DNA of 64,000 nucleotides from contig CACMOZ010000001.1 of NCBI GenBank assembly GCA_902615435.1, forward strand, positions 62,001 to 126,000, read 5' to 3'. Each line of letters begins with the position of its first letter. Position 1 is the stretch's first letter. Made by a program: the position numbers and the translations under genes. Of the stretch, positions 7,747 through 36,878 are shown in pieces. The notes beneath the pieces were generated by a model. That model made no database searches, was not told the DNA's origin, and saw only the letters and a program-made list of their open reading frames with translations. Source of the stretch: an uncultured Pelagibacteraceae bacterium. Lineage in GTDB: Bacteria; Pseudomonadota; Alphaproteobacteria; Pelagibacterales; Pelagibacteraceae.

Positions 7747-8077
7747 AACAAGATTTATTATTTCTTCAATTGTATTTATTATTTTTTTAATAATTACCTC
7801 TACTATAAAGAATAAAACTAGAATTATCGAAAAACAAATTTTTAATTTAAATACAACAATTTCGTCTTTAGAGCAAAATATTAATGAAACTCAATTAGAT
7901 TTTCATTATTTAACTTCTCCCGCAGAAATTGAAAAAAAATTAAATATTATTGGATTTGCAAATTATCAACCAATATCGCACTCAAAAATATTTTTTGATA
8001 TCTCAGATTTCTTAAGTATAGAAAATAAGTTTTCCAATCTCAATAATTTAAATGAAAAAGAAATCCAAAAAAAATAA
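7739..8077 (+). CDS. ftsL: FtsL-like divisome protein
   Basis: FtsL is a short bitopic membrane protein that forms a coiled-coil complex with FtsB and FtsQ and activates FtsWI. The 112-residue product has one N-terminal membrane helix (residues 5-22) followed by a coiled-coil region (IIEKQIFNLNTTISSLEQNI). The call rests on this architecture and on its position between rsmH and ftsI; sequence conservation in this family is low. It overlaps both neighbours (8 bp with rsmH, 26 bp with ftsI). Confidence 0.8.
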   Translation: MFKTRFIISSIVFIIFLIITSTIKNKTRIIEKQIFNLNTTISSLEQNINETQLDFHYLTSPAEIEKKLNIIGFANYQPISHSKIFFDISDFLSIENKFSNLNNLNEKEIQKK

Positions 8078-34805: not shown

Positions 34806-34829
34806 AGGGGCGTTCTGTTGCCAGGTGCC
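34806..34829 (+). repeat. tmRNA-tail repeat, copy A (outermost)
   Basis: These 24 bp (AGGGGCGTTCTGTTGCCAGG plus TGCC) are identical to 35215-35238 and 35867-35890. The last of these is the 3'-terminal pseudoknot of the tmRNA coding piece read on the other strand. I interpret it as a displaced att core. Confidence 0.85.
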
Positions 34830-35214
34830 TATAATTTTAGTTAATATATTAAATGTATGAATTGTTTGCAAATCTTACATTAATTGCGCATTTAATCTTT
34901 ATCTTATTTGTTATTTTTGGTGGCCTGCTCTTCTTCATTTTTTCAAAAGTATTCTATATTCATCTTCCTGCATTATCATGGGGAATTTATATAGAACTAA
35001 CTAGTTCTGTTTGCCCATTAACCTATTTAGAAAATTGGTTTTTGAATAAAGCTGAGTTGGCAACTTATTCTAATGGTTTTATTAACAACTATCTTTACCC
35101 AATAATTTATCCCGAGGGCCTAACTAATAACATTCAGATATATCTTGGCATAACATTGATAATTGTTAATATTTTTATATACGGATATATTTTAAAAAAT
35201 TTTAAAAGATTTTA
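34830..35214. mobile_element. ssrA cassette 1: single DUF2784 gene between tmRNA-tail repeats
   Basis: The unit from repeat A to repeat B measures 409 bp and is almost entirely filled by one 120-codon gene. There is no recombinase. The gene's stop codon TAA ends at 35215, on the first bases of repeat B. I see no 11-bp-period arm repeats here, unlike in the neighbouring cassette, so this one may be immobilised. Inference: an old integrative cassette at ssrA. Confidence 0.65.
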
Positions 35215-35215
35215 A
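34853..35215 (+). CDS. DUF2784 family membrane protein
   Basis: The 120-residue product matches the DUF2784 pattern: an N-terminal helix LIAHLIFILFVIFGGLLFF, then IHLPALSWGIYIELTSSVCPLTYLEN, NGFINNYLYPIIYPEGLT, and a final helix. About four membrane segments are predicted. The function of the family is unknown. It is the sole gene of ssrA cassette 1, reading rightward, opposite to the tmRNA. A TATAAT at 34830-34835 right after repeat A could be its -10 element. Confidence 0.85.
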   Translation: MYELFANLTLIAHLIFILFVIFGGLLFFIFSKVFYIHLPALSWGIYIELTSSVCPLTYLENWFLNKAELATYSNGFINNYLYPIIYPEGLTNNIQIYLGITLIIVNIFIYGYILKNFKRF

Positions 35216-35244
35216 GGGGCGTTCTGTTGCCAGGTGCCCCGAAC
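35215..35244 (+). repeat. tmRNA-tail repeat, copy B (between the cassettes)
   Basis: These 30 bp are identical to 35867-35896 at the tmRNA gene; the first 24 also match copy A. The GGGGC...GCCCC stem of the tmRNA pseudoknot is complete here, so it may also act as a terminator hairpin for the DUF2784 gene that stops on it. Confidence 0.88.
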
Positions 35245-35299
35245 TTTGTTTGATTATAGGCAATTATTTTTTCAAAGTCACATAAATTTTACGTATCAG

Positions 35300-35332
35300 G
35301 ACGAGTAGAGGACGAGTGAAAATCGACTCGCC
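35300..35332 (+). repeat. Left arm-type repeats of ssrA cassette 2
   Basis: GACGAGT occurs at 35300-35306 and 35311-35317 (11-bp period). An inverted near-copy (ACTCGCC) follows at 35326-35332. The first 18 bp recur with one mismatch at 35792-35809. Confidence 0.6.
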
Positions 35333-35362
35333 CATCTAATTTATTTTTGATAGCATCGGCTA

Positions 35363-35785
35363 ATGATTTTTGGATTGTTTAAAGATTATTCTGATACTGA
35401 CATAATAGATGCAGTTCAATTTCTTGACGAAATTGATAGCACTATGCACAAGTATGTAAGTGATAGTGAGATGTCTGGTATGCTAGCAGATACATCAATT
35501 GCAAACGAATACACAATCAAAAATTTAAGAATGGTAGGTATCTATTATTATGGATTGTCTAGAATGTTTAAGGGAAAGCCAAATCAATTAAATAATTTTT
35601 TATTAGACGTATTTAAATATAAATACAAAGAGTACGACACAAGTATTGCAAAACAAGCGTATGTAGGATTTAGTAAAAATGTTAACTTTAAGAATAAATA
35701 TTTTTTAGAGGGATATAAGGAAGCAAAAAATTTTAAGGGAGATACTTTAAAATTAGTAGATAAACATTTTAAAAATTTTAAGTAA
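35363..35785 (+). CDS. Hypothetical 140-residue helical protein, cargo of ssrA cassette 2
   Basis: The family is not recognised. The product begins MIFGLFKDYSDTDIIDAVQF and appears soluble and mostly helical, with segments EIDSTMHKYVSD, IKNLRMVGIYYYGLSRMFKG and KHFKNFK at the end. No signal peptide, membrane helix or nuclease/ATPase motif is visible. It reads rightward, has no clear ribosome binding site, and is flanked on both sides by the GACGAGT repeats. Given its isolation in a mobile-looking unit it could be a fitness or defence cargo, but nothing in the sequence proves this. Confidence 0.65.
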   Translation: MIFGLFKDYSDTDIIDAVQFLDEIDSTMHKYVSDSEMSGMLADTSIANEYTIKNLRMVGIYYYGLSRMFKGKPNQLNNFLLDVFKYKYKEYDTSIAKQAYVGFSKNVNFKNKYFLEGYKEAKNFKGDTLKLVDKHFKNFK

Positions 35786-35791
35786 TTTCAA

Positions 35792-35809
35792 GACGAGTAT
35801 AGGACGAGT
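35792..35809 (+). repeat. Right arm-type repeats of ssrA cassette 2
   Basis: GACGAGT occurs at 35792-35798 and 35803-35809 with an 11-bp period. The 18-bp block matches 35300-35317 at 17 positions and has the same orientation. Confidence 0.6.
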
Positions 35810-35866
35810 CACTAGGTTGTATTTTTTAAATAACGTTGATACTGCAAACTAATTTAACAAATGAGT

Positions 35867-35896
35867 AGGGGCGTTCTGTTGCCAGGTGCCCCGAAC
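35867..35896 (+). repeat. tmRNA-tail repeat, copy C (the functional tmRNA end)
   Basis: This is the 3'-terminal pseudoknot of the tmRNA coding piece and the source of repeats A and B. In the integration model it is the attachment core rebuilt after each insertion. Confidence 0.88.
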
Positions 35897-36116
35897 CCCG
35901 TTACTTAATTAACAAAGTTAATTAAGCTGCAAGTGCATAACTTTCGTTAGCATTTGTAAATTGGCCCGTTACGTCGGAACCATCTCGTACGAAAGAATAG
36001 CCTTTAGACATCCGTCGATCCTAATTCACCCCCTTTTGATTTAATTGGTGGAGGTGGTGGGTACTGCCCCCACGTCCGTAATGTTTATTACGAAATTCGT
36101 TTATCGTCATAGTTGG
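35867..36116 (-). ncRNA. ssrA: Two-piece (permuted) tmRNA
   Basis: tmRNA rescues stalled ribosomes and tags the unfinished protein for proteolysis. On the minus strand the acceptor piece comes first. Its T-arm pairs GTGGG with CCCAC, followed by the acceptor strand CACCTCC and a mature CCA ending at 36046. After a 12-nt spacer the coding piece begins at 36033 with GGGGGTG, which pairs over 7 bp with the acceptor strand. The tag frame at 35951-35922 reads ANESYALAA then TAA. A TTAATTAA-stem hairpin and a final GC-rich pseudoknot (35867-35896) follow. This permuted order is known from alphaproteobacteria. The pseudoknot is the sequence duplicated as repeats A and B. The outer ends are approximate. 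Confidence 0.95.
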
Positions 36117-36132
36117 TAAAACCAACAATTCT

Positions 36133-36138
36133 ATTATA
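36133..36138 (-). promoter_or_regulatory. Candidate -10 element of ssrA
   Basis: A perfect TATAAT on the minus strand lies about 20 bp before the acceptor piece. A 6-bp perfect hairpin (GTTGGT/ACCAAC, 36112-36126) would form at the start of the transcript. No good -35 is visible. Confidence 0.5.
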
Positions 36139-36161
36139 AAGTAGATTTGGCATTTTACTAC

Positions 36162-36878
36162 ATGAAAAAAAATAATAGATTTCATATTTTAATTCCAGTT
36201 TTCAATGAAAATGAAACTATCGTAGAGACTGTAAGAAATATTCTTCAAAATGTGGATTATAATTTTGAAATACTAATTTGTTATGATTTTGATGAAGATA
36301 AGACATTAAATATTTTAAAAGAAAATTTTAAAAACAATCCTAAAATCAAGTATATCAAAAATAAATCTCGAGGATTTAATTTAGCTCTTATTACTGGAAT
36401 TGAAATCTCAGATGCCGATGCAATATTAATCTATATGGCCGATGACCATAACAATTCTAAGCTTATTAATAGGATTTTTGAAAAGTATAATGAAGGTTAC
36501 CACGTAGTTTGTCCAAGCAGATTTGTACAAAGTGGAAATATGAAAGGAGTTCCTTTTCTAAAAGGCGTACTAACAAAACTTGCATCATTTATAATATTTA
36601 ATTTTTCAACTTTTCCGATTAAGGATGCAACTAATTCTTTTAGGTTGTTTTCAAGAGAACTCCTCAGTCAATTAACATTAGAGTCTAATAAAGGTTTTAC
36701 ATTAAGTTTTGAAATTACTGCAAAAGCACATAGGCTTAATTTTAAGATGATCGAAATACCAACAGTTTGGATAGAGAGAACTAGAGGAGAGAGTAGATTT
36801 AAATTATTAACTTTTATTCCTCTATATCTAAGATGGTTATTTTATATTTTTCAAACGACTTTAACTAAGAAGAATTAA
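36162..36878 (+). CDS. Family 2 glycosyltransferase (dolichyl-phosphate mannose synthase-like)
   Basis: The GT-A fold is shown by FHILIPVFNENETIVETV at the start, EILICYDFDEDKT, SRGFNLALITGIEIS and ILIYMADDHNN, where DDH replaces the common DxD. The product has about 238 residues from the ATG at 36162; a TTG at 36147 adds five residues. The C-terminus contains a hydrophobic stretch that may associate with the membrane. Such enzymes transfer a sugar to polyprenyl phosphate or to a growing glycan. The stop overlaps the next gene's start by one base, so it is cotranscribed with the oxidoreductase. Confidence 0.85.
   Translation: MKKNNRFHILIPVFNENETIVETVRNILQNVDYNFEILICYDFDEDKTLNILKENFKNNPKIKYIKNKSRGFNLALITGIEISDADAILIYMADDHNNSKLINRIFEKYNEGYHVVCPSRFVQSGNMKGVPFLKGVLTKLASFIIFNFSTFPIKDATNSFRLFSRELLSQLTLESNKGFTLSFEITAKAHRLNFKMIEIPTVWIERTRGESRFKLLTFIPLYLRWLFYIFQTTLTKKN

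Follow-up and report, generated by a model that had tools for sequence, protein, structure and literature searches.

Matched, putative arm-type words at the ends of small, integrase-less cassettes stacked at the tmRNA gene of Pelagibacteraceae

The window, a stretch of 64,000 nucleotides, comes from a 1.04 Mb assembly of 24 contigs from the Pelagibacteraceae (SAR11). It carries on its reverse strand (35864–36164) the tmRNA gene ssrA, a permuted, two-piece alphaproteobacterial form (Rfam RF01849, 218 bits; ARAGORN tmRNA*) with the tag peptide ANESYALAA, which serves as the integration target. Three copies of the ssrA 3′-end sequence, starting at 34807, 35216 and 35868, bracket two small units, cassettes 1 and 2. 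The proximal copy at the 3′ end of ssrA (35868–35896) and the distal copy of cassette 2, which separates the two cassettes (35216–35244), form a 29-bp direct repeat, GGGGCGTTCTGTTGCCAGGTGCCCCGAAC; the third copy is the distal end of cassette 1 (34807–34829). The ssrA core sequence is GGGGCGTTCTGTTGCCAGGTGCC. The repeat encodes the predicted terminal hairpin of the ssrA coding RNA piece and restores the 3′ end of the tmRNA, as the direct repeat of an integrated element does. Core-type half-sites are usually imperfect palindromes, and the core reads GGGGC-gtt-CTG-ttgc-CAG-gt-GCCCC, which can be interpreted as inverted core-type half-sites around a short overlap, the arrangement of a tyrosine-integrase attP.

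Cassette 1 encodes a DUF2784 protein (34853–35215, forward strand). As a unit of 409 bp (34807–35215) it recurs in G048, G008, G033, G089, G076, G224 and G040, without arm words and at differing array positions; since it adjoins the core without a distal core in several genomes, it may be an ancestral neighbour. The cargo of cassette 2 is an orphan protein of 140 residues (35363–35785, forward strand), predicted to be all-helical in a single-sequence model with a mean pLDDT of 66. It had no Pfam match above the cut-off, no NCBIfam match, no convincing match to PHROGs or phages and no relatives in 397 genomes; a kinship with the cargo of G077_9277 was not supported.

Inside the two cores, cassette 2 carries paired words. 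The left pair, GACGAGTAGAGGACGAGT (35300–35317, forward strand), consists of two copies of GACGAGT with a period of 11 bp and starts 55 bp past the left repeat, where the preliminary description of this DNA had placed it. The right pair, GACGAGTATAGGACGAGT (35792–35809, forward strand), has the same words, period and orientation and differs from the left by one mismatch, as also described, except that it ends 58 bp and not 57 bp before the right repeat; the mismatch falls within the spacer. That description listed both direct pairs and missed a third, inverted word in the left arm (35326–35332, reverse strand; ACTCGCC on the forward strand). Sister cassettes carry corresponding inverted words, and the closest related cassette, G354_8161, has the exact inverse, ACTCGTC, at this place. 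The block that matches between left and right extends to 22 bp at 91% identity. GACGAGT occurs seven times in the window against an expected 0.99, a count reached in none of 100 shuffles, and GACGAGT-N4-GACGAGT occurs exactly twice in the assembly, both times in cassette 2 (reversed control pattern: no occurrences). As the double word is found only here, the pairs are not a genome-wide regulatory motif in this genome.

The DNA between core and arm words belongs to a family that we term scaffold C, with a putative left attP module at 35239–35345 and a putative right one at 35788–35867, both on the forward strand. A search of 397 family genomes with the left module yielded ten clear matches (76–92% identity), all of them from a single genus, g14, to which the window does not belong. 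The right module is 85% identical to that of G354_8161, and G044_8856 is also close. On this scaffold, GACGAGT is found in seven other cassettes. Four of these have pairs at both ends (G354, G398, G417, G367), as does G406 with one diverged copy per end, and AG-910-B05 and AH-326-D09 show the same layout, the latter again with one diverged copy per end. Among six of the scaffold C cassettes (the window, G354, G398, G417, G406 and G367), no cargo similarity was detected. Further members have exchanged the word: GTCGTCC stands at both ends in G465 and G395 and on the left in G322 and G399, and TCCGAAC (G357) and CCGACC (G354_6287) are each present on both sides. Thus cargo is freely exchanged on a scaffold that is kept, and the two ends change their word in step, a pattern predicted by arm-type sites under changing integrase specificity and not by a host regulatory motif.

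Cassettes of this kind are widespread at ssrA. An exact search with the core was positive in 66 of 150 relatives, all of the same genus and many with two to four copies. In 132 Pelagibacteraceae regions we delimited 221 cassettes between ssrA-end repeats, with up to seven in tandem, the regions having been picked for their matches, so that these counts are not frequencies. Median length was 847 bp over the first 172 cassettes, and most contain between one and three genes. The names of several source records resemble those of single-cell assemblies (AG- series), making a binning artefact less likely. A 272-bp cassette is 99.2–99.6% identical in G044, G077 and G088, genomes whose mrp genes, which adjoin ssrA, are only 75–80% identical. 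Likewise, G074 and G164 share a 1.3-kb cassette at 99.2% identity, and the 394-bp cassettes of G044 and G175 do not differ. Judged by these sequences, cassettes appear to be shared horizontally between genomes, as expected of elements mobilised in trans.

The 25 commonest PHROGs families in 116 cargo proteins comprise methyltransferases, helicases, nucleases, a protease, an epimerase and unknowns; integrase, primase, capsid-modifying, packaging or other phage and satellite genes were not among them. Three loci (L308, L300, L208) hold large cassettes with type I and type III-like restriction genes, DNA methylases, a caspase-domain protein and trypsin-like proteases. At the other extreme are very small armless cassettes of 127–199 bp (G051_7873, G044_10007, G017_280, G074_8761, G034_8493), in which hydrophobic peptides of about 16–27 residues seem, by eye, to be encoded on the ssrA strand after purine-rich ribosome-binding sites. 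In G263, a left arm of a second scaffold, B, lies beside a tRNA-Leu-like sequence (L362, ~7877–7938) and not directly at an ssrA core, inside a diverged ssrA array.

To describe the arms across the collection, we scanned 148 cassettes longer than 300 bp for near-identical 7-mer pairs near their ends. Pairs with a spacing of 9–13 bp were present at 73/148 left and 79/148 right ends, compared to 57/385 interior windows, and the spacing peaked at exactly 11 bp (59 left, 72 right), with a preferred distance to the core of about 61–73 bp on the left and 64–78 bp on the right. The words vary by cassette and include, besides GACGAGT, TACGAGT, TACGACC, TACGTGT, TCCGCCC, TTCGGCA, TGTGATC, TGAGTCC and TGCGTC. 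Of the 53 cassettes with a pair at both ends, 25 have exactly the same word left and right, whereas 2000 shuffles gave 5.0 such cassettes on average and never more than 11. The covariation persists within scaffolds A (z = 4.2) and B (z = 6.8), both at the floor of 20,000 shuffles, and within scaffold C (n = 13, z = 4.75, floor of 50,000 shuffles), the shuffles ignoring the shared ancestry of modules, so that independent word changes are fewer than cassettes. Four cassettes (G076_12930, G185_8996, G040_7583, G032_7693) have different words at their two ends, which is expected if neighbouring cassettes fuse through loss of the intervening core. About half of the cassettes, cassette 1 included, have no arm words; either another route exists for them or their arms have decayed.

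The same word on both sides of a core is the layout that arm-type sites would have in an attP. The proposal that the pairs in the window are arm-type sites is now strongly supported, as the architecture recurs in many ssrA cassettes, the ends stay matched as the word changes, and unrelated cargo lies between near-identical putative arm modules in two genera. Covarying arm words of this kind appear to be new.

In the cassettes, the left words immediately precede a conserved promoter-like box and the start codon of the cargo, and the cargo mostly starts within ~150 bp of the core. Twelve cargo proteins, among them G015_10494, G165_7454, G153_7823, G448_7517, G038_9073 and G154_10176, share a MKKLLAIVVLGLLWSGNAYA-like signal peptide (67% mean identity over 18 residues). 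Their mature parts are largely unrelated, some pairs being related further on. Unrelated cargo with a single signal peptide suggests that promoter, start and secretion signal may all be part of the conserved left end.

The place of the left words directly upstream of the promoter-like box and start codon also fits another explanation, in which they are operators at the cargo promoter, bound by a regulator or by a recombination directionality factor. Directionality factors of the wHTH type bind short direct repeats in attP regions (compare PMC11963761). What an operator leaves unaccounted for is the right pair, which lies downstream of the cargo and repeats the left word, its distance from the other core being nearly constant regardless of whether 0.4 or 3 kb of cargo intervene; a simple operator needs no such matching copy. 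We regard the operator explanation as unlikely.

Arm-type sites, as we interpret the words, imply an integrase. The preliminary description had found the recombinase gene missing from the unit, and this is borne out in every array read: with an HMM built from SAR11 tyrosine recombinases, no tyrosine integrase was detected in any array or flank, although the model recovered resident and phage integrases elsewhere. Phage_integrase is absent from the 25 commonest of the 118 Pfam families in 116 cargo proteins, and a serine recombinase is absent among the top Pfam families listed for them. By the HMM and the listed families, then, the elements differ from an ordinary integrated element in having no cognate integrase gene of their own. 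A single tyrosine recombinase of ~304–325 residues is the rule in the genus. The one tested resembles XerD/Cre over its whole length and thus has no separate arm-binding domain. The finished genome G230 contains an arm cassette, and no tyrosine recombinase was found in it other than this XerD/Cre-like protein, which is 325 residues long and unlinked, ~318 kb away. In HTCC1062, a ‘probable phage integrase’ has been reported in the hypervariable region HVR2 (PMC2217521); we infer that it is the same gene. No repeated 11-bp word pairs were found near the prophage-type integrases of the genus (G033, G050, G010, G043, G042). In two of these genomes (L291 in G033, L292 in G050), a 446-residue phage-type integrase sits in a block with a terminase-like gene, adjoining a trigger-factor-like gene; these are probably prophages at another site.

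Since arm sites need an arm-binding integrase, and none is present in the cassettes or in the finished genome G230, mobilisation in trans is favoured. To this extent the preliminary description is supported; its further suggestion of a phage or larger island with the same arm words found no counterpart in IMG/VR, in GenBank phages, in PLSDB or in those SAR11 genomes that were searched, and a helper with matching recombination sites was likewise not seen among these viral contigs, phages and plasmids. Nor did the genomes and databases searched yield an integrase-bearing element at ssrA. Signatures of scaffolds A, B and C gave no match in IMG/VR, or a chance match in a contig of 44% GC, and only chance-level matches in GenBank phages and PLSDB. 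In a genus-wide search, the scaffold A matches that were placed lie at ssrA arrays. Among the matches listed for the GACGAGT double word in IMG/VR, the contigs were of mixed composition and not linked to the core, which is what chance would produce for a pattern with 14 fixed bases. The 23-bp core itself is present in eight IMG/VR contigs (L001–L008), each with its own permuted tmRNA gene and none with a visible cassette, and a degenerate core in one more (L331), which has no recognised tmRNA. As viral contigs carry a tmRNA with the identical 23-bp core, phage genomes could offer cassettes a landing site.

Alternatively, the cassettes could be relics of an autonomous element that once had its own integrase, now dead or transferred solely through homologous recombination of the ssrA repeats. 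The absence of a tyrosine integrase from every array fits this, as do the degenerate cores or mismatched arms of some cassettes. Relics should not, however, be near-identical at different array positions in hosts whose flanking genes have diverged to 75–80% identity, nor should their arm words stay matched while the DNA between core and arm diverges. Homologous recombination over ~25 bp would leave the matched words unexplained, and we consider this origin quite improbable.

We propose that cassette 2 is probably a non-autonomous integrative cassette, moved by an arm-binding tyrosine integrase supplied in trans. Its ends would be the two halves of an attP, each combining a core half-site from the ssrA 3′ hairpin with arm-type sites 55–60 bp further inside, two direct GACGAGT copies per end and one inverted copy on the left. 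The integrase would enter transiently with a helper (a phage, plasmid or larger island), bind the word pairs and the core, and excise the cassette as a circle, which could insert at ssrA by attP × attB recombination. Insertion would regenerate the core next to ssrA, so that cassettes stack in tandem arrays. The arm word would act as an address matching the integrase, different between cassettes and changing at both ends together. The sequences themselves show the anatomy, its recurrence, the matching of the two ends and the spread between genomes, with no tyrosine integrase detected in the arrays; binding of words by the integrase, circle formation and a transient helper are steps that we infer. 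It is plausible that such cassettes arose when cargo replaced the integrase gene behind the old int promoter. A circle could in principle also replicate, with right pair, core and left pair as an origin and the words as iterons, which are likewise direct repeats at one helical turn and in the circular form would cluster within ~200 bp, but no replication gene was recognised in cassettes that mostly hold one to three genes, and an intasome accounts better for direct pairs that have an additional inverted copy and an att core between them, making this explanation very improbable.

Under trans mobilisation, the cassettes suggest an unrecognised, integron-like form of gene exchange that depends on an outside helper. 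SAR11 are among the most abundant marine cells and have streamlined genomes, whose variable regions have been reported to be free of any integron signature; the ssrA arrays would be a concrete route of gene exchange between divergent genomes, in cassettes of ~1 kb, some with restriction systems, methyltransferases, proteases or a caspase-like protein. Tentatively, and with some doubt, the tmRNA end may be viewed as a shared SAR11 docking site for address-coded cassettes, which would be small, mostly promoter-bearing and recombinase-less, with defence-like or secreted cargo, and with arm words that are matched to diversifying outside integrases and swap in concert while the att scaffold is kept. 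If true, this system would belong neither to the integrons nor to any known class of satellites. With their concerted changes, the arm words would constitute a natural data set on the evolution of integrase arm-binding specificity, and they predict the binding site of the helper integrases. We found no description of ssrA cassettes in SAR11 in the open literature, outside which most subscription journals lie.

Several known systems share parts of this anatomy. In Dehalococcoides, tandem islands at ssrA have direct repeats of the 3′ end of that gene at their borders, and 15 of them without an integration module have been proposed to be cis-mobilizable; the system relies on a large serine recombinase, DsiB, present in neighbouring islands (PMC3146451). 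The SAR11 cassettes resemble them in tandem arrangement, ssrA 3′-end repeats and integrase-less members, but the Dehalococcoides islands are larger, whereas the SAR11 arrays have covarying arm words and no integrase-bearing neighbour was found in them; a term search of that paper returned no mention of arm-type sites.

With integrons and CALINs (PMC11389934), the cassettes have in common that they are small, stand in tandem at a fixed site and have no recombinase of their own, integron and CALIN cassettes being moved in trans. Unlike CALINs, whose site is a folded attC, they would use a duplex ssrA core with putative arm sites, and many appear to carry their own promoter; attC sites have been reported absent from SAR11 hypervariable regions (PMC2217521). 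Phage satellites and tycheposons (PMC11389934, PMC10872708) also place cargo at tRNA or tmRNA genes and rely on helpers, but those reported are larger (tycheposons 4–200 kb) and typically have their own tyrosine recombinase, compared to a median of 0.85 kb and no tyrosine recombinase found in the SAR11 cassettes. In the additive flexible islands of Methylophilaceae, the final 20 bp of a tRNA gene similarly recur as a mark of the island; these islands use another target, and the available part of the source (PMC10872708) does not describe arm sites.

A parallel for the left end is KplE1, where the intS promoter, immediately within attL, is overlapped by arm sites (PMC2951348). The SAR11 cassettes likewise combine a core and putative arm sites with a promoter-like box just inside one att site, under the arm words. 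In contrast to KplE1, the gene behind that promoter is cargo and not an integrase, and on a conserved scaffold the arm words differ between elements.
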